Shown: positions 10,219-20,930 of the stretch, in pieces
Numbering within the stretch: position 1 is the first letter of the stretch
Layout of the letters: every line of letters begins with the position of its first letter
Assembly: GCA_013140805.1 (NCBI GenBank)
Contig: JABFRW010000103.1
Coordinates: 1 to 53,655 of the forward strand
DNA length: 53,655 nucleotides
From: Candidatus Eisenbacteria bacterium
GTDB lineage: Bacteria; Eisenbacteria; RBG-16-71-46
Reading direction: 5' to 3'
Made by a program: the position numbers and the translations under genes
The notes under the pieces: generated by a model
The model's input: the letters and a program-made list of their open reading frames with translations, nothing else
Databases searched by the model: none
Told to the model about the DNA's origin: nothing

Positions 10219-11013
10219 ATGAGTCCACGCGAACTCCCCCGCTACTCGGTGACGTTGTCGCAAGAACACTGTTTCCTTCCGCGTCTCGCGGCCCTGCTGG
10301 TGAGCCTGTCGCTGCTCGCCGCGGCTGCTCCTCCCTCAGACGCCCAGCTCGGTGTCACGGGGCTGATGAACCTCGGCTGGAACGACTGCGGTCTCACCTC
10401 TGCGAATTCGAATCAGTTCGTCGACTGCAGCGCCCCGGCCGCAGTCTACGAACTGGTCGGGTCATTTCGACTCAACCGCAATCTGACCGGCTTCGTCGGT
10501 GTGAGCACTACCCTGTCGATTCGATTCGACGGAGCGAGCGTCCCGAACTGGTGGGCATTCCAGAGCGCCGGCTGCCGCGAAGAGGCCCTCACGGTCCCGC
10601 CCGTCACGGCGCTGGCCGGCTGCGCCAATCCTTACTCGGGGGCCAATCAACTCGCAGCGCACCTCGTGGAGCCCGACTCACCCGCGCAACCGAACGCCTT
10701 TCAGATCCGGCACGACATCGTTCGCGACACGGCGGTCGCGCTCACGGGGGGAACGCTGTACAGCGCCTGGCGGCTTCGGATCTCCAGCCAGAACCCGAAT
10801 GCATGCGAGGGTTGCGAGATTCCCGCCTGCATCTACCTGAGGTCGATGGAAGTGTTTCGAGTCGTCGGCCCTTCGGTGCTGATTCAGTCGCCCGAAGTCC
10901 GCAACGTCGTGACCTGGCAGGGTGGACCGAACAGCCCGGGATTGTGCCCCGCCAGCGGACCGACGGCCGCACAACGCTCCACGTGGGGAGCGGTCAAGTC
11001 GCTGTATCGATAG
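10219..11013 (+). CDS. Secreted protein ending in the TWGAVKSLYR tail
   Basis: 264 residues, family not recognised. An N-terminal signal peptide (hydrophobic LAALLVSLSLLAAAAP, cut near SDA-Q) is followed by a beta-rich, Cys-containing body (about ten Cys, suggesting disulfides outside the cytoplasm). The last residues RSTWGAVKSLYR almost duplicate the end of the unrelated protein at 19950-20930 (RATWGSIKSIYR); both tails follow a Cys and a Pro-Thr pair. I chose ATG 10219 over GTG 10198 because GGAGG precedes it at a proper distance. Followed by a strong hairpin. Confidence 0.75.
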   Translation: MSPRELPRYSVTLSQEHCFLPRLAALLVSLSLLAAAAPPSDAQLGVTGLMNLGWNDCGLTSANSNQFVDCSAPAAVYELVGSFRLNRNLTGFVGVSTTLSIRFDGASVPNWWAFQSAGCREEALTVPPVTALAGCANPYSGANQLAAHLVEPDSPAQPNAFQIRHDIVRDTAVALTGGTLYSAWRLRISSQNPNACEGCEIPACIYLRSMEVFRVVGPSVLIQSPEVRNVVTWQGGPNSPGLCPASGPTAAQRSTWGAVKSLYR

Positions 11014-11033
11014 TCCGCGCCCGATCGAAGCGA

Positions 11034-11063
11034 AGCGGGCCGCACCACGCGGTGCGGCCCGCT
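11034..11063 (+). terminator. 13-bp perfect hairpin
   Basis: AGCGGGCCGCACC (11034-11046) pairs perfectly with 11051-11063 around ACGC, 20 nt after the stop of the secreted protein gene. No U-tract. Confidence 0.6.
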
Positions 11064-11071
11064 CGCCCCGT

Positions 11072-11317
11072 TCAGTTCACTTCGATGCGCACCGCCCCGC
11101 TCGGGAAGAAGTGATTCGCGCCGGCGAACAGGAACAATGCTCCGAATTGCGGTCGGATCGCGATCTGCAGCGGACCAATGTTCCGGAACAATTGCACCGG
11201 CCAATTTGACTCTTGCGCGCCGTGGCTCGAAGGCCTAATTGGCGAATTGCGCGAGCGTCGAGGACACGCGCGAATCTTCGATGCACAGCGCGAGCGAACC
11301 TCGATCGGGGTTCGCAC
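11072..11317 (-). CDS. Doubtful small ORF or gene remnant
   Basis: In the 348-nt interval 11014-11361 the only coding-like signal besides the hairpin is this minus-strand frame of 81 codons. Its C-terminal half (PLQIAIRPQFGALFLFAG then NHFFPSGAVRIEVN) looks like real beta-strand protein, and the hairpin at 11034-11063 would separate it from its convergent neighbour. The N-terminal half looks random and the base composition is AT-richer. It may be a decayed gene end. Confidence 0.22.
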   Translation of the reverse strand: MRTPIEVRSRCASKIRACPRRSRNSPIRPSSHGAQESNWPVQLFRNIGPLQIAIRPQFGALFLFAGANHFFPSGAVRIEVN

Positions 11318-11361
11318 ACTCCCTTCCCACCCGGTTGTTCGGAGTCGAAAGGAGACCCCCC

Positions 11362-11718
11362 ATGAAGGCAGTTCTCGTCATCGCGGCACTCACGCTGTGC
11401 GCAGGCGCCGCATTCGCCCAGGACAAGGTGCAGCCGCCGACAGTCACGATCACGATCGGGACCGGAAAGACCACGGCCGTCGTCTCATGGACAGCGCCAG
11501 GCGACGCGTGCACGAACGCGACCGTCGCCGAGTACGATGTGCGCTGGTCATCGTCGGCCATCACCGAATGCAATTTCACGAGCGCCACGCAGTTCGCCAA
11601 CATTCCGAGCCCGAGCTCACCGGGAAGTGACGAGTGCGAGGATCTCGGAGGCGCGACCGGAAGCAGAGCCACACGGTCGTGCGGGACGCCGGGATCACCC
11701 GAAGTCCTGTGCCCGTAG
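11362..11718 (+). CDS. Small secreted fibronectin-III-like protein
   Basis: 118 residues. Signal peptide MKAVLVIAALTLCAGAAFA-Q, then strands typical of the first half of an FN3 domain (TAVVSWTAPGD ... EYDVRWSSSAIT). The second half expected of FN3 (the ...TYYFALK... strands) is absent; the C-terminus is Gly/Ser/Cys rich. Neither other frame restores it, so this is a genuinely short or truncated protein. AAGGAG 8 nt before ATG 11362 fixes the start. Function unknown; probably periplasmic or surface. Confidence 0.65.
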   Translation: MKAVLVIAALTLCAGAAFAQDKVQPPTVTITIGTGKTTAVVSWTAPGDACTNATVAEYDVRWSSSAITECNFTSATQFANIPSPSSPGSDECEDLGGATGSRATRSCGTPGSPEVLCP

Positions 11719-11732
11719 TTCGCTGACTCGCA

Positions 11733-11766
11733 GCGGCCGACGCGTCGGGAGTGTCGCGTCGGCCGC
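11733..11766. terminator. 12-bp perfect hairpin between convergent genes
   Basis: GCGGCCGACGCG (11733-11744) is fully complementary to 11755-11766 with a 10-nt loop, between the ends of the FN3-like gene and the convergent PATAN gene (stop 11772). Probably bidirectional. Confidence 0.65.
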
Positions 11767-11771
11767 GTGCG

Positions 11772-13259
11772 TTAAGCCGCGACTTCGCCCGGCCCTTCGG
11801 CGTCCGATTCGGCGGCGGGCTCGACCGCGACCGGCGTGCTGCTCGCCCACAGTCGCAACGATTCGGCGATCGCGAATCGCAGGTCCACTTCGAGGTTCCA
11901 GAGCGTGCCCAGGATGCCACGTTGCGGAAGCGGACGGTTCGCAAGCGTCGCCAGTTCCTTGACGTGGCGCTCGATCATGACGTTTCCGATCGACACGCAC
12001 CCGCGCGGAGACCAGCGCGTGAGCAACTCGATGAGTCCCGAGCGGGCGTCGAGATCGAGCGTCTGAAAATCCCCGTGGGTCGGCGCAACGATCATCGCGA
12101 CCGGGCGGCGATTGAGTTCGTCGATCAGCGTACGCGGCCGATCCTGATCGATCAGGATCACCTCGAGGCGCGTCTCGGCGTCCATGCGCAGCGACCACAC
12201 CAGCGCTTCGGGGGGATCGTGCAACGCGTGACACACCTGCTCATCGGCGAGCGGGGTGGCGACGGCACTCAGCGCCTGCACCCCGCAGTGAAGGTCGGTG
12301 ACGAGCCAGATCTGGATCCGCTGCGTGATGCGACGCTCGACACTCCAGGCTTGATACGCGGCGCGCGAAAGCAGCTGCAGCTCGCCAAGCGGCTTGGTGT
12401 GCTCGAGCAGCGCTTCCCCGCGCGCGGCCCAGCTCACGTCGGGTTCCCAGGAGGCGCCCTCCCCGTTGCTGCGATCCGGCACCGCGGTCAGCGGCGCGGG
12501 CAGGAACGCGCGCGCCTCGCCCTGCTCCTCATCGAAGCGGGTCGCGGCACGCAGCACCAGGCTCGCTGTCGTCGAGTCGATCGTGGCTTCGAGTTCGTGC
12601 TCGGCCGCCGGGTCTCCCGGACGGAACTCGTACTGCGCCTTCTCGAGGTGCATCAACTCGAAGAACGCTTCCTCGCCCACCAGGTTTCCGAACTCGGCAT
12701 GGATCACGCGGCCTTCGCCGAACAGCACGCGACCCTCGCCATCGGACGTGAGCAGTCGCAGCCGTCCGCTCGCACGCCCGAGCTCGAGCAGCCCGATCAG
12801 ATCGGTGAAGCCGAGTGCGGTGAGATCACCGGACAGGTTGTAGTGACGTTCGGTCAGCTTGCGCCGATGGCGGCCCGCCACGCGCGCGAGTGCCCGCAGG
12901 CGCGCGGCCAGTTCGGAATGCGAGCCCGGATAGGCCATGCAGTCGGCGGCTCCGGCATCGATCGCATCGGCGACCTGCTCGCTGGTCGCGGACTCGAGCA
13001 ACGCGAGCACCGGGATCACGGCGAGACGCCGATGATGCCGCAGCTCGTCGAGAAGTCCCTCGGTCAGGCTCTCGCCCACGTGCACGTGCAGAACGATCAG
13101 GTCGACGCGCACCCGAGACAGCACCTCGAGTGCCCGCTCCCAGTTGCGCACCGAGCGGACGGTCAGGCGCAGGCTCTCGGAGCCGAGCTGCTCCATGGTC
13201 TGCATGAGGGTCTCGTCGGTCGAGACGAGCAGCACCGTTCCCTGGGCATCGAAGCGCAC
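11772..13259 (-). CDS. Pseudo-receiver plus PATAN (DUF4388) protein
   Basis: About 495 residues. An N-terminal receiver-like fold (VLLVSTDETL ... VDLIVLHVHVGES ... PVLALLES) has His where the phospho-acceptor Asp should be, so it cannot be phosphorylated normally. It is followed near residue 140 by a DUF4388/PATAN domain (LSGDLTALGFTDLIGLLEL ... GRLRLL ... GRVIHAEFG ... FFELM). The C-terminal ~200 residues are not recognised. PATAN proteins usually act in signalling, motility or differentiation. I prefer GTG 13259 because GGGGGAG lies just upstream; GTG 13292 is possible. Confidence 0.75.
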   Translation of the reverse strand: MRFDAQGTVLLVSTDETLMQTMEQLGSESLRLTVRSVRNWERALEVLSRVRVDLIVLHVHVGESLTEGLLDELRHHRRLAVIPVLALLESATSEQVADAIDAGAADCMAYPGSHSELAARLRALARVAGRHRRKLTERHYNLSGDLTALGFTDLIGLLELGRASGRLRLLTSDGEGRVLFGEGRVIHAEFGNLVGEEAFFELMHLEKAQYEFRPGDPAAEHELEATIDSTTASLVLRAATRFDEEQGEARAFLPAPLTAVPDRSNGEGASWEPDVSWAARGEALLEHTKPLGELQLLSRAAYQAWSVERRITQRIQIWLVTDLHCGVQALSAVATPLADEQVCHALHDPPEALVWSLRMDAETRLEVILIDQDRPRTLIDELNRRPVAMIVAPTHGDFQTLDLDARSGLIELLTRWSPRGCVSIGNVMIERHVKELATLANRPLPQRGILGTLWNLEVDLRFAIAESLRLWASSTPVAVEPAAESDAEGPGEVAA

Positions 13260-13345
13260 GATCGAAACTCCCCCGCGGAGCGACTGGCGCACCCGCCGAG
13301 ATCGGCGGGTGCATGGGTGGAGCCAGTTTCAGGGAGTGATCGGCC

Positions 13346-13378
13346 CCGAGGCTCGAAGGCTTGACCCTCGAGCCCCGG
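13346..13378 (-). terminator. Hairpin after the Ycf48-like gene
   Basis: Eleven-position stem with one mismatch (13346-13356 against 13368-13378), 10 nt beyond the stop codon of the gene at 13389 on the minus strand. No U-tract. Confidence 0.5.
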
Positions 13379-13388
13379 GTGCGCCCGG

Positions 13389-16300
13389 CTAGGGCAGAAC
13401 CAGCATCCGCCGGGTGTCGCGGAAGGTGCCGGCCGTGAGGCGGTAGAAGTAGACACCGGCCGCGATCCGTCCCATCGAACTGCCGCGATTGGCAGCGCCG
13501 GGGCCGAACGAGACCGCGTACTCGCCGGCCTCCTGCTGGGTATCGACGAGCGTCGCGATGCGGTGACCTTGCAGGTCGAACACCTCGAGTCGCACCGATG
13601 CACGGGTCGGCAGCGCGTAGCGGATCGAAGTGCTGCGCGAGAACGGATTCGGCAGATTCGGCCGCAGCGCGAATGCGACCGGGTTCGGATCCCCGACCGC
13701 CACCAGCGCCTGCGCCTGTGCGAGCACCTTGAGCGTGTGCGAGCCGGCCGGATCATCGGTCGTGACCGTGATCGTGGCGCTGTCCGCTCCGGCGGCACCT
13801 GGTGCGTTGTAGGTCACGCCGAGCGTGTCGTCGTCGCCCTCGGTGACCGCGAACGTGGTGCGGTGTGGAACGAAGCGCGGGTTGTCGCTCGCTACACCCA
13901 GCACCCCGAGGAACGCGGTGCCGGGGTTCGCGATCAAGAATGCTCCGCTCGCCGCAGTGTTGATCTCGACTGCGCCCAGGTCGAGCGGCGTCGGCAGGCC
14001 GTTGAATCCCGGCACCGTGATCGCCAGATCGTCCTCGCTCACGTCGGTGATCGAGCCACCCATGTCGCGCACTCGCACAGCGCCGGTGGTGGTCTGCGCA
14101 TTGGGGATCACCCAGTCGAAGGTGCCGAGCGTCGCGTCGATGTTGTCGGCGATCAGCTCCCACGGCAGGTTGGGCGCGGTGCGGTAGTCGATCCCGACCT
14201 GTGTGATGCCGCTCGCGAGCCAGGTGATCGGGTGCGTCGTGCCGTACTTCCACGTCTGAGCGGCCCCCGGCGCGAGCACCGTCAGCGCACCCGACGCGGT
14301 TCCGGTGCCGTCGAGCGGCACCTTCACGGTGCCGGCGTCGCTCACGATCGTGAGACTGTCGACATAGCCCTGACCGGCGGTCGGACGGAACGTCACGCCG
14401 ATCGAATCGCTGGCGGCCGGCGCGATCGTCAGAGAGATGCGGCCTTCCGTGAACGCGGCGGTCCCGGTCGAGACCGAGGTCACGATGAGCGCAACGGTTC
14501 CGGTGCTCTGAACCGTGACCGGCAGCAGTGCGGTGTTACCGGCCGCGTGCGAACCGAACGACAGGTTGCCGGGCGTCACCACCATGCGAGGTGCCAGGAT
14601 CGTGAAGGTGGCGTTCGATTCGTCCTGCGGCGCGCTGTCCCATGCGTCGAGTACCCGCACCTGCGCCTGCGTGGTCGGCACGTCGGGGACGGTCCAGGCA
14701 AAGGTGCCGAGATAGCCGGGCACTTCGCTGATCAACTGCCACGACGACGCGTTGTTCTCTCGCCACTCGACGCGTGCGAGCCCGATGTTGGTCGAGTTCC
14801 AGTTGATCGCCACCACCGCGCCGCGCGCCAAAGACTCGCCGCCGTTCGGTGACGCGACCGTGAGCGACTGCGTCGTCGCCGGCGTGTAGTTGTAGTTGAA
14901 GCGCATCTTGAAGAGTGAATCCGACTGCTGAGCAAAAATGGTGGCACGATCCACCATCAGAAACGAGTAGTTGGTACCGTTCAGCGGGATGCTCTGGTAG
15001 CTAATGCCACCATCGAGCGAGAAGCGCGAAGAACCCCCGCTGTACTGACCGATGACCACAACGTTCGGATCGTCCTTGGCGACATCGGTGCCCCATGAGG
15101 AGCCGTAGCCCGCGAGCGCCGAGATGGTCGGCCAGGTATTGCCACCGTCGCTGGTGGCGCGTGCGCCGGCGGCTGACCAGGTGCTTGCGTAGGTGCGTTC
15201 CTTCCGGAGGCGCGAGGTCGACATGCCCGGCACTTCGCTGCCGTTCGCGTTCTGACGCAGCGAGAAGTTGAGGCCGTTGTTGGTGGAGCGGAACAGCTCG
15301 CCGATGCCCGATCCGGTGATGCCGTCTCCGACCTGCCACACGTCGTTCGAATCCGGAAGCACGATGATGTCGCACGGGCTTCTGAACACCTGCGTGCCGT
15401 AGTCGCTCCAGGTCGCACCGCGATCGGTCGAGATCTGCAGCACGTCGTCGTCACCGCCGAAGATCAGCGTGTCGGGCCGGTCGGGGTGCTGCTCGAGCGG
15501 AATGCCGTAGGTGCCGAACTCGTGCGCGTGCGTGGTCGACCAGGTGGCACCGCGGTCGGTCGAGCGGATCACGCCGCGCCCGCCGGCATCCAGCGAGACG
15601 GCGGCGATGAAGGTGTTGGTGTCGCGATCGGACACGATGAACGCATTCGGATCACTGGAGAGCGTGGTGGTCGCGATGGTGCTCCAAGTCTCGCCCCGAT
15701 TCGGCGAGTAGCGCACCGAGTTCAGCGACATCACATAGATGATGTTCGGATTGAGATAGTTGTAATCCATGGTGAGGCCGCGGAAGCCATTGCTCAAGTT
15801 GTGCATCTTCAGCCAGGTGCGAGTCACACCGCCGCCACGCTGCATCACCCAGTTCGTCGCCGAGCTGTCGCGCAACACCACGTTGTAGACGTTCGATGCC
15901 GCGAAGGTCTTGCCGCCCGCGATCCCGATGCCCGAGACCTGGCCGTGCAGCGAGTGGATCGGAAAGGTCCAGGTCGTGCCGTCGTCGACGCTCGAGCGCA
16001 CGAAGCCGCCGCCGCCGCCGAGGATCACGCGCGTGGCGTCGAGTGCCACCGCGCGCACGTCCGGCCGCGCGTCGGTGCGCAGGTTGACCGCGTTCCAGTT
16101 GGCTCCCGAGTCGGTGCTCTTGAACGCGGTCGCGCCGCGGCCAACCGCCCACACGCGCGAGCCGTGCTGCGCGACGCTCAGCAGTTCGGCGGTCGAGCCG
16201 AGTGCCACCGGGTTCCAGCTGGCGCCACCGTTGGTGGTGCGCAGCAGCGTGCCGGAGGCACCCACCGCCCAGCCGTCGTCGGCATTCGTGAACGCGACGC

Positions 16301-16745
16301 CGAACAGATTCGCGCCGCTCCCGCTCACCTGTGCGTTCCAGCTCGCACCCGCGTCGGTGCTGCGCAGAATGGTTCCGGCGTCGCCGACCGCGATCGCGAC
16401 CAGGTCGGTCGGCATCGAGACCGCGTTGAGATCGGATGCCGAGGCGACCTGCGATGCGAAGGTGCCGCCGTTGTTGGTGCTGCGCCACACCACGCCGCCG
16501 TCGCCGACGATCAGCGGCACCAGCTGACGGTGCGCGACTCCACGCAGCGGTGCGGTGCCGAGATTGTTTTTCACGTAGGTGATGCCCGAGTCATAGGAGC
16601 GGAAAATCGCGCCCGAATCGCCGACCGCCCACACATGGGTGCCGTCTTTGGAGTGAACGGCATGGAAGCCGACCGCCTGCGAGACGGTCGAAGTCGCCGC
16701 GAGCAGCGCGAGAAGGCACACGAGCAGGGGGGCGATACGTCGCAT
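13389..16745 (-). CDS. Secreted Ycf48/BNR-type beta-propeller with Ig modules and FlgD-like C-terminus
   Basis: 1118 residues. Signal peptide 1-24 (LLVCLLALLAATSTVSQA). Residues ~25-620 carry repeated sorting-propeller/Ycf48-like blades (HVWAVGDSGAIFRS, GWAVGASGTLLRTTNGG, STDRGATWS). Next are two Ser-Thr-rich GPI-type/Ig modules (SPNGGESLARG ~632; ~820-910) interleaved with two choice-of-anchor-D/ASH-like modules (~720-815 and ~918-1010), then the FlgD-like module to the end (VFDLQGHRIATLVD, GVYFYRL). Last gene of a three-gene operon, 7 nt after the HzsA-like gene. Likely a secreted or surface binding protein; ligand unknown. Confidence 0.85.
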   Translation of the reverse strand: MRRIAPLLVCLLALLAATSTVSQAVGFHAVHSKDGTHVWAVGDSGAIFRSYDSGITYVKNNLGTAPLRGVAHRQLVPLIVGDGGVVWRSTNNGGTFASQVASASDLNAVSMPTDLVAIAVGDAGTILRSTDAGASWNAQVSGSGANLFGVAFTNADDGWAVGASGTLLRTTNGGASWNPVALGSTAELLSVAQHGSRVWAVGRGATAFKSTDSGANWNAVNLRTDARPDVRAVALDATRVILGGGGGFVRSSVDDGTTWTFPIHSLHGQVSGIGIAGGKTFAASNVYNVVLRDSSATNWVMQRGGGVTRTWLKMHNLSNGFRGLTMDYNYLNPNIIYVMSLNSVRYSPNRGETWSTIATTTLSSDPNAFIVSDRDTNTFIAAVSLDAGGRGVIRSTDRGATWSTTHAHEFGTYGIPLEQHPDRPDTLIFGGDDDVLQISTDRGATWSDYGTQVFRSPCDIIVLPDSNDVWQVGDGITGSGIGELFRSTNNGLNFSLRQNANGSEVPGMSTSRLRKERTYASTWSAAGARATSDGGNTWPTISALAGYGSSWGTDVAKDDPNVVVIGQYSGGSSRFSLDGGISYQSIPLNGTNYSFLMVDRATIFAQQSDSLFKMRFNYNYTPATTQSLTVASPNGGESLARGAVVAINWNSTNIGLARVEWRENNASSWQLISEVPGYLGTFAWTVPDVPTTQAQVRVLDAWDSAPQDESNATFTILAPRMVVTPGNLSFGSHAAGNTALLPVTVQSTGTVALIVTSVSTGTAAFTEGRISLTIAPAASDSIGVTFRPTAGQGYVDSLTIVSDAGTVKVPLDGTGTASGALTVLAPGAAQTWKYGTTHPITWLASGITQVGIDYRTAPNLPWELIADNIDATLGTFDWVIPNAQTTTGAVRVRDMGGSITDVSEDDLAITVPGFNGLPTPLDLGAVEINTAASGAFLIANPGTAFLGVLGVASDNPRFVPHRTTFAVTEGDDDTLGVTYNAPGAAGADSATITVTTDDPAGSHTLKVLAQAQALVAVGDPNPVAFALRPNLPNPFSRSTSIRYALPTRASVRLEVFDLQGHRIATLVDTQQEAGEYAVSFGPGAANRGSSMGRIAAGVYFYRLTAGTFRDTRRMLVLP

Positions 16746-16752
16746 GATCGGC

Positions 16753-18840
16753 TTACTCCCAGGCGATGCGAGCGATGGTCTCGATCTCGGCAAGGGCAAG
16801 GGGAGCCGGATCGCGACCGCGATTGAGGGCCGGGAAATAGCGCAACTCCATGGCATCGATGCGGGTGAGCGGGAAGCCCAGCCACCCGTCGTTCGACCGC
16901 CATTCCCGGTCAAAGCTCTGGTGTCGAACCACCGCACCGGCGGAATAGAGCGTCAGCTCGAGGCGGCCCCGCTGGGAGGTCGCCGGTGCACGGTCGCGGC
17001 GCTCCAGACGATAGAGTCTGATCCCCTTCGATTCAATGGGAACTTGCCACGCGAGCCGAACCCACTGGGGGCCCGGATCCCCGGCCACCCATGCCACTTC
17101 CCCCCACGCGCCGCGGGTCTTGCGGTCGATGAGTGCCATGGGCCCGAGGGTCCCCACCGCCTGAGAGGACGCGGTGACGGTCGCCGAGGTGGAAACATTG
17201 GTGAACTGCCCGCGACCGCGGCTCGTCTCGACGAAGATTTGGCTGTGGCCGACGTGGCAGCCCACGCATTTGGTGCCGCCTCCCGGCCGCGCGGCGTTGA
17301 AGCCCGCGACGTGCGCCGGGCCGGCGGTGCTGCGCACCACGTGGCCGTGCGCATCGATCAGTTGCTCGAACATCGGCTGATCGGCGGGAGCGCGATCCAC
17401 GAACACGCCGCCCTGCGGGTTGACGCGCTGCTCGTCGACCACCACCAGCGAGTCTTGGCCACTGCCGTCGGCATTCACGATCGTCGTGAAGAAGCGAATG
17501 CGCAGGCCCTGCTGGAGTTTGGGCGCATCGGGAATCGCGGCATCGATCGGCGCATTGGCGAAGACGTTCAGGCAGTCGAAACGCACCGTGTGTTCGCTGG
17601 CGAGAATCTGCGCGAGCGAAATCGGTGGAAGCGGCTCGGGCGCGTGCGGGTTGTACTCGGGATAGATCGACCGCGGCGGCAGTCGGCGCGGAGCGAGCAC
17701 GGCGGCATCGAGCTCGAGTGAACCGGGCCGGTCGAAGACGCGGGACAGTCCGCGACCGTTCGCTTCCACTATATAGAGGCCCCAGTCGCCGGTGCCGTCG
17801 GCATCCATGGAGAACACGATTCGGCCGTCGGGCAGCCCGACCGGCGAACACGCCGAGTGGCCGATCGGCGCGCCGTACCCCGCGAGCGGACGGGCCGGCG
17901 CGATGCCGCGATCGAAACTCTGCAATCCGAGTCGGCCCGGGCTCGCGAGCCCCGCCGCTTCCGAGATCACGCCGACCAGCGTGGTGTCGGACAGCACCAC
18001 GGGCTGATACGCCCACTGCCCGGAGCGATGGCGCGCATCGCCGCCCTGAAGTCGCGCCAGGTCGCCATCGCGCTCGCTCGAGATCGCATGCCACAGGTCG
18101 ACCGAGTCGGCCGGGAGCGCGCCGTCGAATCCGTGCGAGGCATTGCGCGCCACGACGTCGCTCGCCCGATAGGGATTGAACCACCAGCGGGCGTAAACGA
18201 TGCGCGACGAGGTGGGGTCGATCGACGGCTCCTCGGCGCCATTGCGCTCGCTGGTGATGCGCAGCCGCTCGCTCCCGTCGGCGTGCATCGTCCACAGGTT
18301 GGAGACCCGCTCGCCGCGTGGTGCGCGCATCGGGAATCGCGTGCTCGCGAATACGATGCGCCCATCGGGCATCCAACACGGATCGAAGTCGTCGAAGCGC
18401 GCGTAACGTATCGCGGCATCGCGGCCATAGCGTTGGCCGGGATCGGCATCGGGCGAGTCGTCGGTGAGGCGAACCACCGAGTCTCCCGCCGCACTGCAAC
18501 GGTAGATTCGCCAGCACGAGTCGGGCGGCGCGATCGCCGCGAACGCCACCCACCGGGCGTCGTAGGAAACCGCCGGATCGCTGACCGCGAGGAAGAAGCG
18601 ATTGGAGTTCCGAAGGAACGGGCGCACGAGTCCATTCGCTTCGCGCACCATCAGCACCGCGGGTGCACTCGAGAGTCGCCCGAGCGGTCCAACGCCCGGA
18701 ATGATGTCCGAGGTCGAGTCGGCGTTTCGAATGACGAACAGCATCCGCGGCAACGGGCCTCCGCTGCGCGGGGCCAGCGACAGCACCAGCGGCAGAATCG
18801 TTGCGGCAACCAGCAGCGTGGCGAGTCGGCGCACGACCAC
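16753..18840 (-). CDS. HzsA-like secreted beta-propeller with CXXCH haem site and discoidin-like domain
   Basis: About 695 residues. N-terminal signal/anchor (LLVAATILPLVLSLAP), then TolB/PD40-type propeller repeats (DPCWMPDGRIVFASTRF, GLPDGRIVFSMDADG). A single c-type haem motif CVGCH lies near residue 525, followed by a C-terminal carbohydrate-binding/discoidin-like region (VTASSQAVG ... GPQWVRLAWQVP). This order resembles the widespread HzsA-related family (hydrazine synthase alpha-like), not proof of hydrazine chemistry. The start is tentative: GTG 18840 shares one base with the TAG of the upstream gene, a coupling arrangement; GTG 18834 is possible. Confidence 0.78.
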   Translation of the reverse strand: MVVRRLATLLVAATILPLVLSLAPRSGGPLPRMLFVIRNADSTSDIIPGVGPLGRLSSAPAVLMVREANGLVRPFLRNSNRFFLAVSDPAVSYDARWVAFAAIAPPDSCWRIYRCSAAGDSVVRLTDDSPDADPGQRYGRDAAIRYARFDDFDPCWMPDGRIVFASTRFPMRAPRGERVSNLWTMHADGSERLRITSERNGAEEPSIDPTSSRIVYARWWFNPYRASDVVARNASHGFDGALPADSVDLWHAISSERDGDLARLQGGDARHRSGQWAYQPVVLSDTTLVGVISEAAGLASPGRLGLQSFDRGIAPARPLAGYGAPIGHSACSPVGLPDGRIVFSMDADGTGDWGLYIVEANGRGLSRVFDRPGSLELDAAVLAPRRLPPRSIYPEYNPHAPEPLPPISLAQILASEHTVRFDCLNVFANAPIDAAIPDAPKLQQGLRIRFFTTIVNADGSGQDSLVVVDEQRVNPQGGVFVDRAPADQPMFEQLIDAHGHVVRSTAGPAHVAGFNAARPGGGTKCVGCHVGHSQIFVETSRGRGQFTNVSTSATVTASSQAVGTLGPMALIDRKTRGAWGEVAWVAGDPGPQWVRLAWQVPIESKGIRLYRLERRDRAPATSQRGRLELTLYSAGAVVRHQSFDREWRSNDGWLGFPLTRIDAMELRYFPALNRGRDPAPLALAEIETIARIAWE

Positions 18841-19787
18841 TAGTGGAGGCGTGTGAACGAGCGGCTCTCGCCACCCGACGCGCTGCGCGCCACCACGCGG
18901 TAGCGGCCCGCAGGTACCCGACGGCCGGACTCGTCGCGCCCGTCCCACAGCCAGGTGCGAGGCCCCGCGACCTGCGCCGTCAGTTCGACACGTCGCAGAC
19001 GACGCCCGAACACGTCGACGATGTCGAGCGTCACCGGGCCGGCGTCGAGAATCTCGAGGCCGAAGGCGACGGGTCCGGAGGCCGGGTTCGGATACGGGGC
19101 GAGCAGCCTCAAGGGGCCCGCGGGGGCCCGCGTCCCACGTGGCGCCACCCCCACGATGCCGTCGGTCAGCAGGATCTGGTCGATGCCGGCATCGCCCTGG
19201 ATCGGATCGGGCGGATTCGGAACCTGAGGAAACGGCGCCAGGTCGTGGCGGATCAGGACGATCGAGACATCGCTCAGTGTCGTCGCGAGCGTTCCGGAGA
19301 GTCCGTTGATCTGCGTGAAGTTCGCGGTGTCGGTGAGGTCGACCACGAACGGCGCCCAGTGGCCCGAGGGCGGTACGAAGCCGATGTCGTACTGCCAGAG
19401 CGTCGTGTCGTTGCCGACCGTGACGTGCATCTCGAACGGCTCGTCGACGCCGACATCGTTGAGCCACACGATCAGCTGGGTGATGCCCGCCGAGTTCCAG
19501 TCGCCGGTGTACGGCGTGCACCCGCGACACCGCAGCCCCCAGTTGGCGGGTGAAACAGTCGCGCCACGCAGGAATCCGTCCGCCGCACCAAGCACCCCTC
19601 CGGTGTTCGGATTGCCGAACGACGGGATGCCGCCGGACCAGCCGTGCGCTCCGGTGCCGGCCGCGAAATCTTCGATGAAACCGACGACTGGCTGACTGTT
19701 CGATGGCTCGGGGGTGCCAATCACCAGACTCAGTACGACCCATGCCGCGGTGAACGAAACTCGGAGGCTGGCCCGATTCGGATACAT
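18840..19787 (-). CDS. Secreted protein with FlgD-like Ig C-terminus
   Basis: 315 residues. Signal peptide ~1-33 (FTAAWVVLSLVIG). The body (~34-220) reads as a beta-sandwich of the choice-of-anchor/laminin-like kind (IEDFAAGTGAHGWSGG ... HWAPFVVDLTDTANF), which I cannot assign. The C-terminal ~90 residues are an FlgD-like Ig module (LDIVDVFGRRLRRVEL, WDGRDESGRRVPAGRYRV). GAGGG before ATG 19787 supports the start. First gene of the operon with the HzsA-like and Ycf48-like proteins; divergent from the gene at 19950. Confidence 0.78.
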   Translation of the reverse strand: MYPNRASLRVSFTAAWVVLSLVIGTPEPSNSQPVVGFIEDFAAGTGAHGWSGGIPSFGNPNTGGVLGAADGFLRGATVSPANWGLRCRGCTPYTGDWNSAGITQLIVWLNDVGVDEPFEMHVTVGNDTTLWQYDIGFVPPSGHWAPFVVDLTDTANFTQINGLSGTLATTLSDVSIVLIRHDLAPFPQVPNPPDPIQGDAGIDQILLTDGIVGVAPRGTRAPAGPLRLLAPYPNPASGPVAFGLEILDAGPVTLDIVDVFGRRLRRVELTAQVAGPRTWLWDGRDESGRRVPAGRYRVVARSASGGESRSFTRLH

Positions 19788-19811
19788 CGACGTTTCCCTC
19801 GTGTTTTCAAC

Positions 19812-19840
19812 TTGTTTGTGACGAGTTGCGGACTTACCTT
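19812..19840 (+). promoter_or_regulatory. Possible promoter of the PPC-domain gene
   Basis: TTGTTT, 17 nt, TACCTT in the 162-nt divergent interval. It would give a leader of about 100 nt containing a small stem (19848-19853 with 19860-19865). The same -35/-10-like words precede the tRNA-Cys gene. Confidence 0.3.
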
Positions 19841-19949
19841 GGTTCATCCGCGTGCAAGGACGCGGCGCCGCGCCCATCCCGTCGAGATCCCCTCATCCCC
19901 CTGCCGCCTCGACCTTCCTTGCAGCCGAGACGACGACACGGAGGCTAGC

Positions 19950-20930
19950 ATGAAGCGCTGGTACTCAAGCGTCGCAATCTGTCTGGTCGCGCTCACCTGG
20001 TCGGCAATCGCGTTCGCGAATCCGGCCAACGTGGTGATCGAGACCGATGCAAAGGCCTGGTCCGCTGCGCCCTCGTTCCTCGCGAACGTGGCCGAGACCG
20101 AGCCGAACAACTCGCTGGCGACCGCTCAGTTCCTGGGGTGCGGAAACATCCTCGCGCCGGCCACCATCGCGGTCGGCGCAGCCCCGCCCGATACCGACTA
20201 CGTGACGTTCACGGCCAACGCCGGTGATCTCATCACGGTCGGCACCGAAGCGAACGGCACCACCGGTCAGGTGGGTGATACGCGCATTCGACTGTTCAAC
20301 AACGCAGGCGGGGTGCTTGCGAGTGACGACGACGCGGGCCCGGGTCTCTATTCGCTGATCGCCGGTTTCGTGGCGCCGTACACCGGCACGTACTACGTCG
20401 GGATCGCGGCGTTCGGCTCCGAAACCGGCGGCTATCGCGCGTTCCTGGTGTGCTGCCCGTCGACCCCTCCGGCGAATGATGTGTGCGCCGGAGCGACGCC
20501 GTTGCCGTGTGGCAACCTGTCGCTGTCGGGCGGTACGCAGTGCTACACCAACAACTACACCCCGCTCGCGAGCGGCACCGGCGGCTGCACCGGCTTCACG
20601 GCCCTCGGCCGTGACGTGGTGTACCGCATCGACGCGGGCCAGGCCGATCAGCTCAACGTGACGTACACGTCGAGCGGCGACGGCTCGATCTACATCATCA
20701 CGGACTGCAACAACCCGACGACCACGTGCGTCGCAGGCGCCGACGCCACGCTGGGCGGAGCCCCGGAAGTGCTGAGCTACGTGTTCCCGACCGCCGGCAC
20801 CTACTACCTGGTGCTGGATACGTTCGGAACCAACTCGAGCGGCTTCTGGACTCTCGACGGTGCGCTGCAGTGCGTTGCCACTCCCACGCGTCGTGCGACG
20901 TGGGGATCGATCAAGTCGATCTACCGCTAG
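19950..20930 (+). CDS. Secreted PPC-type beta-sandwich protein ending in the TWGSIKSIYR tail
   Basis: 326 residues. Signal peptide (SVAICLVALTWSAIAFA). Two pre-peptidase C-terminal (PPC)-like domains: the first opens with ETEPNNSLATAQ and contains DTDYVTFTANAGD and GTYYVGI; the second starts at PANDVCAGATPL and ends GTYYLVLDTFG. Six or more Cys in the second suggest disulfides. The extreme C-terminus RATWGSIKSIYR nearly matches that of the otherwise unrelated protein at 10219-11013. No catalytic domain accompanies the PPC modules, so this is likely a binding or structural exported protein. GGAGG precedes ATG 19950. Confidence 0.82.
   Translation: MKRWYSSVAICLVALTWSAIAFANPANVVIETDAKAWSAAPSFLANVAETEPNNSLATAQFLGCGNILAPATIAVGAAPPDTDYVTFTANAGDLITVGTEANGTTGQVGDTRIRLFNNAGGVLASDDDAGPGLYSLIAGFVAPYTGTYYVGIAAFGSETGGYRAFLVCCPSTPPANDVCAGATPLPCGNLSLSGGTQCYTNNYTPLASGTGGCTGFTALGRDVVYRIDAGQADQLNVTYTSSGDGSIYIITDCNNPTTTCVAGADATLGGAPEVLSYVFPTAGTYYLVLDTFGTNSSGFWTLDGALQCVATPTRRATWGSIKSIYR

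Follow-up and report, generated by a model that had tools for sequence, protein, structure and literature searches.

Evidence for a short C-terminal tail as a sorting signal of exported proteins in Candidatus Eisenbacteria and Krumholzibacteriota, with a PorU-like C25 peptidase clade as the candidate enzyme

PEP-CTERM, MYXO-CTERM, and GlyGly-CTERM tags consist of a transmembrane helix followed by a basic end. In the corresponding systems (PEP-CTERM/exosortase, MYXO-CTERM/myxosortase, and GlyGly-CTERM/rhombosortase), many choice-of-anchor bodies carry C-terminal tags in a many-to-one arrangement. In the T9SS, which reviews call Bacteroidota-specific, the C25 peptidase PorU cleaves the CTDs and joins the cargo to surface lipopolysaccharide (PMC11969387 and PMC4560394). 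The T9SS CTD is a beta fold of 40 to 80 residues, and the “short” CTDs of Prevotella intermedia still comprise 43 to 55 residues in beta strands with motifs B, D, and E (PMC11969387). A PorU paralog has been proposed as a second sortase in PorU2/PorV2, a putative second type IX sorting system (NCBIfam NF052324 and NF052325).

The stretch of Candidatus Eisenbacteria DNA analyzed here (the window, 53,655 nucleotides) encodes two secreted proteins, P0001 and P0002, that end in a similar tail, termed here the WG tail (Table 1). P0001 terminates in RSTWGAVKSLYR, whose last base is 11010, and its stop codon follows immediately at 11011-11013; P0002 terminates in RATWGSIKSIYR, with its last base at 20927 and the stop codon immediately after it at 20928-20930. 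A degenerate tail pattern matched twice in the window and not at all in 100 dinucleotide shuffles. In BLASTP, the alignment between the two proteins was limited to the final ~30 residues (E value of 3e-4), and the bodies gave no match. PPC domains (PF04151) were found in the P0002 body, whereas P0001 had no match in Pfam or NCBIfam and a structure search with its body returned generic beta-sandwich matches only. Searches of Pfam and NCBIfam detected no FlgD/T9SS module in either protein and no match to the tail region of either. The preliminary description was thus correct in placing the same tail at the stop codon of two proteins that have signal peptides, lack a FlgD-like module, and are not full-length homologs. 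P0001 is, in addition, a paralog of tail proteins that lie in a cluster with a C25 peptidase gene on another contig (C89) of the same genome.

Table 1. WG-tail proteins of the window and their tails (positions within the 53,655-nucleotide window)
Feature	Position	Strand	Description
Secreted protein P0001, 264 aa from ATG 10219	10219..11013	+	Signal peptide, Cys-rich predicted beta-sandwich body, linker, WG tail
P0001 C-terminal tail GPTAAQRSTWGAVKSLYR	10957..11010	+	Core WGAVKSLYR, 10984-11010
Secreted protein P0002, 326 aa	19950..20930	+	Signal peptide, two PPC-domain stretches (best, residues 81-153), WG tail
P0002 C-terminal tail VATPTRRATWGSIKSIYR	20874..20927	+	Core WGSIKSIYR, 20901-20927

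Genomes were searched with a strict pattern, W-G-x-[IVL]-K-x-[ILM]-[YF]-R at the stop codon, and with the reversed pattern as a control. The window's genome (G000) contained 24 strict and 41 relaxed tails, and the control gave none. Strict tails were present in 40 of the 47 genomes of the window's phylum, Eisenbacteria, and in 77 of the 80 genomes of a second phylum, that of the Krumholzibacteriia genome G065, with no control match in either. The motif, whose absence elsewhere in the genome had been named as a reason to drop the proposed tag, therefore recurs in other proteins of the genome and in its relatives. Among further genomes, the highest number of copies was 62, followed by 56 and 55. 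Among the matches listed in a scan of a genome collection, most belonged to Ca. Eisenbacteria, Krumholzibacteriota/-iia, Effluviviaceae, and unnamed bacteria. Tail matches also sit in genomes labeled Kerfeldbacteria, Actinobacteria, and Planctomycetota (L037, L070, L099, L119, and L120), and these contigs look mislabeled or misbinned. Some genome handles denote one genome reached twice (G061 is G002, and G074 has the same coordinates as G028). Family f11 was rejected as a tail-free control because the relaxed pattern revealed tails, terminating in R, K, H, or Q, in seven of its nine genomes. A second set of 17 tails in G000, in which the seventh core position is occupied by Arg or by a small or polar residue (WGxLKxRYR; for example, C5:14653-14682 and C121:6345-6374), may form a subclass.

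The consensus of 154 tails was P-[VT]-[ER]-x-[ST]-[ST]-W-G-x-[IVL]-K-[AS]-[LIM]-Y-R, in which the W, G, K, Y/F, and R columns were set by the search pattern itself and the remaining columns were also strongly biased. When a 16-column profile was run against 6236 open reading frame C termini, the scores were bimodal, with 74 matches above 23 bits and the next one at 13. Dropping the stop codon from the pattern left the counts nearly equal in the window's family and raised them mainly in family f6; all of the additional copies that were read end 1 to 8 residues further on, and the motif is therefore C-terminal. The terminal Arg is strongly preferred and not absolute. Two elements upstream of the core had been described as part of the motif. 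The Cys did not hold up, as it occurred within 19 residues upstream of the tail in 73 of 126 proteins versus 65 of 126 in a control stretch, and the exact form C-x-A-x-P-T-x-R fitted a single protein of the 126. Of the proposed Pro-Thr pair, what stands is a more general P-[VTAI] dipeptide ahead of the W (87/126), usually six residues before it, with strict P-T found in only 38 of 126.

The conserved hydrophobic residues of the tail share one helix face, and the hydrophobic moment, averaged over tails, is highest near 110 degrees per residue, with a value at 100 degrees of 0.45 versus 0.34 in shuffled sequences. In an AlphaFold model of P0001, the last 14 residues (250-263) are drawn with low confidence (pLDDT of <50) as a helix that is separate from the beta-sandwich body. 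The tail, about 16 to 18 residues long and helical in the model, is probably a short amphipathic helix carried by a flexible linker. It thereby differs from the T9SS CTD, which is recognized as a folded beta-sandwich of ~40 to 80 residues by TIGR04183 or a related model; the tail is not such a domain. It is also unlike the PEP-CTERM type of tag, in that none of 126 complete tail open reading frames had a TM-like segment near the C terminus and exosortase did not track it. Neither NCBIfam nor Pfam yielded a model for the tail, and a literature search returned no sorting signal described in these phyla.

A signal peptide was assigned by a simple rule to 117 of the 126 complete tail open reading frames. 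The bodies of the tail proteins are unrelated and include beta-helix, NHL, PPC, LTD (lamin-tail), CHRD, LamG, and cohesin domains according to Pfam and NCBIfam. They also fall into the NCBIfam families choice-of-anchor E, J, and V, ScyF (PEP-CTERM), MXAN_6652 (MYXO-CTERM), and a rhombosortase-dependent M36 family, that is, families normally tagged elsewhere by PEP-CTERM, MYXO-CTERM, or rhombosortase signals. For 114 tail proteins, no CTD model appeared among the best 25 of 36 families and the best 25 of 43 families. Homologous bodies carrying either the WG tail or a T9SS-like CTD were found (L105 versus L031, L051 versus L046, and adjacent genes in L043). As in the T9SS, then, proteins with signal peptides bear an exchangeable C-terminal signal on many bodies, and the same bodies can occur with either signal. 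One tag on many unrelated secreted bodies is a classical sign of an exchangeable sorting tag, and here the same end-aligned tag was found on unrelated secreted bodies and many times per genome, as is general for sorting signals. The evidence is strong that the tail, P-[VT]-x(3)-[ST]-W-G-x-[IVL]-K-x-[ILM]-[YF]-R-COOH, is a C-terminal sorting signal. That the two unrelated window proteins end alike is accounted for by what appears to be a sorting tag, which dozens of exported proteins per genome share in two uncultured phyla and some relatives, and the new sorting or anchoring tag proposed in the preliminary description is supported at the level of sequence by the recurrence of the motif in proteins that are not full-length homologs. 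Some tagged proteins resemble lipoproteins (L001, L101, L251, and L264), and this counts against the reading, since such proteins have no obvious need of a second anchor.

The co-occurring protease that had been anticipated was searched for, and one candidate emerged, a PorU-like C25 clade; several lineages have genes of this clade downstream of tail genes. C25 peptidases occur throughout the window's phylum. The tail-cluster regions of three genomes had in common a C25 gene near LspA and DksA, a link seen only in 20-kb regions; the 8-kb flanks of the pattern matches gave mainly T9SS-CTD and tail proteins. This C25 paralog scored 216, 258, and 276 bits against the PorU model NF033707, below the cut-off of 420, and 94 to 105 bits against PorU2, so that it fell far under both cut-offs. 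True PorU proteins of G000 and G015 scored 478 and 582 bits, over the cut-off, and were adjoined by a PorV-family gene that also exceeded its cut-off; within G000, the comparison is 478 bits for true PorU versus 216 for the paralog. In a tree of 63 C25 domains, the paralog formed its own clade of 44, separate from PorU with 100/100 support, which spans Eisenbacteria, family f11 included, as well as the majority of the tail-bearing genomes not belonging to that phylum. The catalytic His and Cys of the C25 family, conserved likewise in PorU, are kept in all 44 members, and the candidate carries its own FlgD-like CTD. In the phylum of G069, which has a T9SS, the 22 best C25 matches long enough for the tree all fell on the PorU side. 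In G004, G007, G008, and G011, 18 to 29 C25 peptidase matches were counted versus 3 to 5 in the window's family.

Between one and five tail genes lay within 8 kb at 20 of 41 loci of the C25 clade, upstream and on the same strand at all 20; counted by hand, 50 of the 51 tail genes listed at C25 loci had this position and orientation. Such linked tail genes occur in several Eisenbacteria families as well as in genomes that do not belong to the phylum. None of 21 true PorU loci had a tail gene, and true PorU was rejected as the linked partner. Fisher's test of C25 versus PorU loci gave P values of 3e-5 and, without the three loci found through tails, 1.6e-4, both of which are optimistic because related genomes are not independent. 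Exosortase was likewise rejected, since it had no match in the tail-rich genomes G032 and G017 (96-97% complete) and did have one in the tail-poor genomes G038, G039, G046, and G012. In some lineages outside Eisenbacteria, drifted tails such as SFGSVKSLFR, TLDNIKSLYR, and SWGAIKSMYSE lay upstream of the C25 gene. At L352, L353, and L356, C25-adjacent tail genes have F or L replacing W, which makes the counts from the strict pattern too low in these lineages.

About half of the C25 loci had no tail gene within 8 kb, some of them because of a contig end. The clade was not found in the tail-rich genomes G062 and G056, which look fragmented and in which the best matches were PorU-like, and a second tree did not draw a clean line between the clade and group A C25 proteins. 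Because the clade and the tail are both restricted to related lineages, their co-occurrence is partly a matter of shared descent, and their linkage could owe something to conserved synteny. On linkage and co-occurrence, the C25 clade is the likely candidate for the tail enzyme. Small secreted dockerin-like genes without the tail are often found in the clusters of tail and C25 genes (L178, L197, L216, L350, L354, and L363; family in seven loci). At L349, L353, L354, and L363 (family in eight loci), a gene resembling SpoIID is located downstream of the C25 gene; its product terminates in H-Y-Y-P-G or a similar sequence.

We consider it rather probable that the tail is a short, helix-like C-terminal sorting signal handled by a dedicated C25 sortase distinct from PorU. 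Tagged proteins would be exported by Sec via the signal peptide, and the tail would be recognized in the periplasm or at the outer membrane by the PorU-like C25 cysteine peptidase. This enzyme would most likely cut the linker upstream of the tail and, like PorU with its T9SS cargo, join the new C terminus to a surface glycan, and a single enzyme would serve up to 20 to 60 substrates per genome. We infer recognition, cleavage, and covalent attachment from the likeness to the T9SS, the cut and the glycan transfer being proposed by analogy with PorU. The difference is that PorU adjoins the PorV gene, whereas the candidate clade is separate from PorU and adjoins tail genes.

SprA, PorU, and a PorV-family protein are all encoded in this non-Bacteroidota phylum (G000:C98, which is L268, and G015:C11, which is L269). 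Matches to SprA were found in 46 of the 47 genomes of the phylum and in 25 of the 26 tail-bearing genomes reached through loci, and because of the latter the T9SS translocon SprA might conceivably be needed for tagged proteins to cross the outer membrane. The same matches, together with the true PorU and PorV-family genes and the bodies common to tail proteins and T9SS-like CTD proteins, would also fit the tail being an alternative short signal of the ordinary T9SS, read by SprA/PorV and cut by true PorU, with the nearby C25 paralog incidental. We regard this as unlikely: tail genes accompany the paralog and not true PorU, the tail has no similarity to CTDs (even to the short beta-strand CTDs of P. 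intermedia), and SprA occurs in tail-poor as well as tail-rich families.

It is less likely still, indeed improbable, that the tail stays uncleaved and serves for retention, as an amphipathic helix that keeps the protein in place by binding to the outer membrane or to a receptor. The one-sided hydrophobic face, the raised hydrophobic moment, and the AlphaFold helix would suit such an element, but the helix is modeled at low confidence, the sequence is conserved more tightly than a membrane-binding helix should need, and the linkage to a C25 peptidase with kept catalytic residues is left unexplained. That the tail marks proteins for a non-sorting role, such as periplasmic chaperone binding or degradation, with the SurA-like and cyclophilin-type PPIases encoded near the C25 gene in several Eisenbacteria genomes as partners, is very improbable, since many bodies are surface or adhesive types that bear anchors elsewhere and some homologs have a secretion CTD in place of the tail.

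Returning to the dedicated C25 sortase, a broader proposal, which we advance tentatively and hold somewhat short of probable, is a second surface-sorting route beside the T9SS, in which the short helical tail would be the signal of its own C25 transpeptidase and dozens of proteins per cell would be covalently attached to the surface. If this were true, C25 sortases would be a family with several signal specificities and not one T9SS enzyme. With the tail, C-terminal sorting signals gain a class that has neither a transmembrane helix nor a folded domain, and, a candidate enzyme family having been named, the signal-enzyme pair is directly testable. Furthermore, in Eisenbacteria and Krumholzibacteriota, which are known almost exclusively through metagenomes, the tail predicts likely surface proteins from sequence alone.
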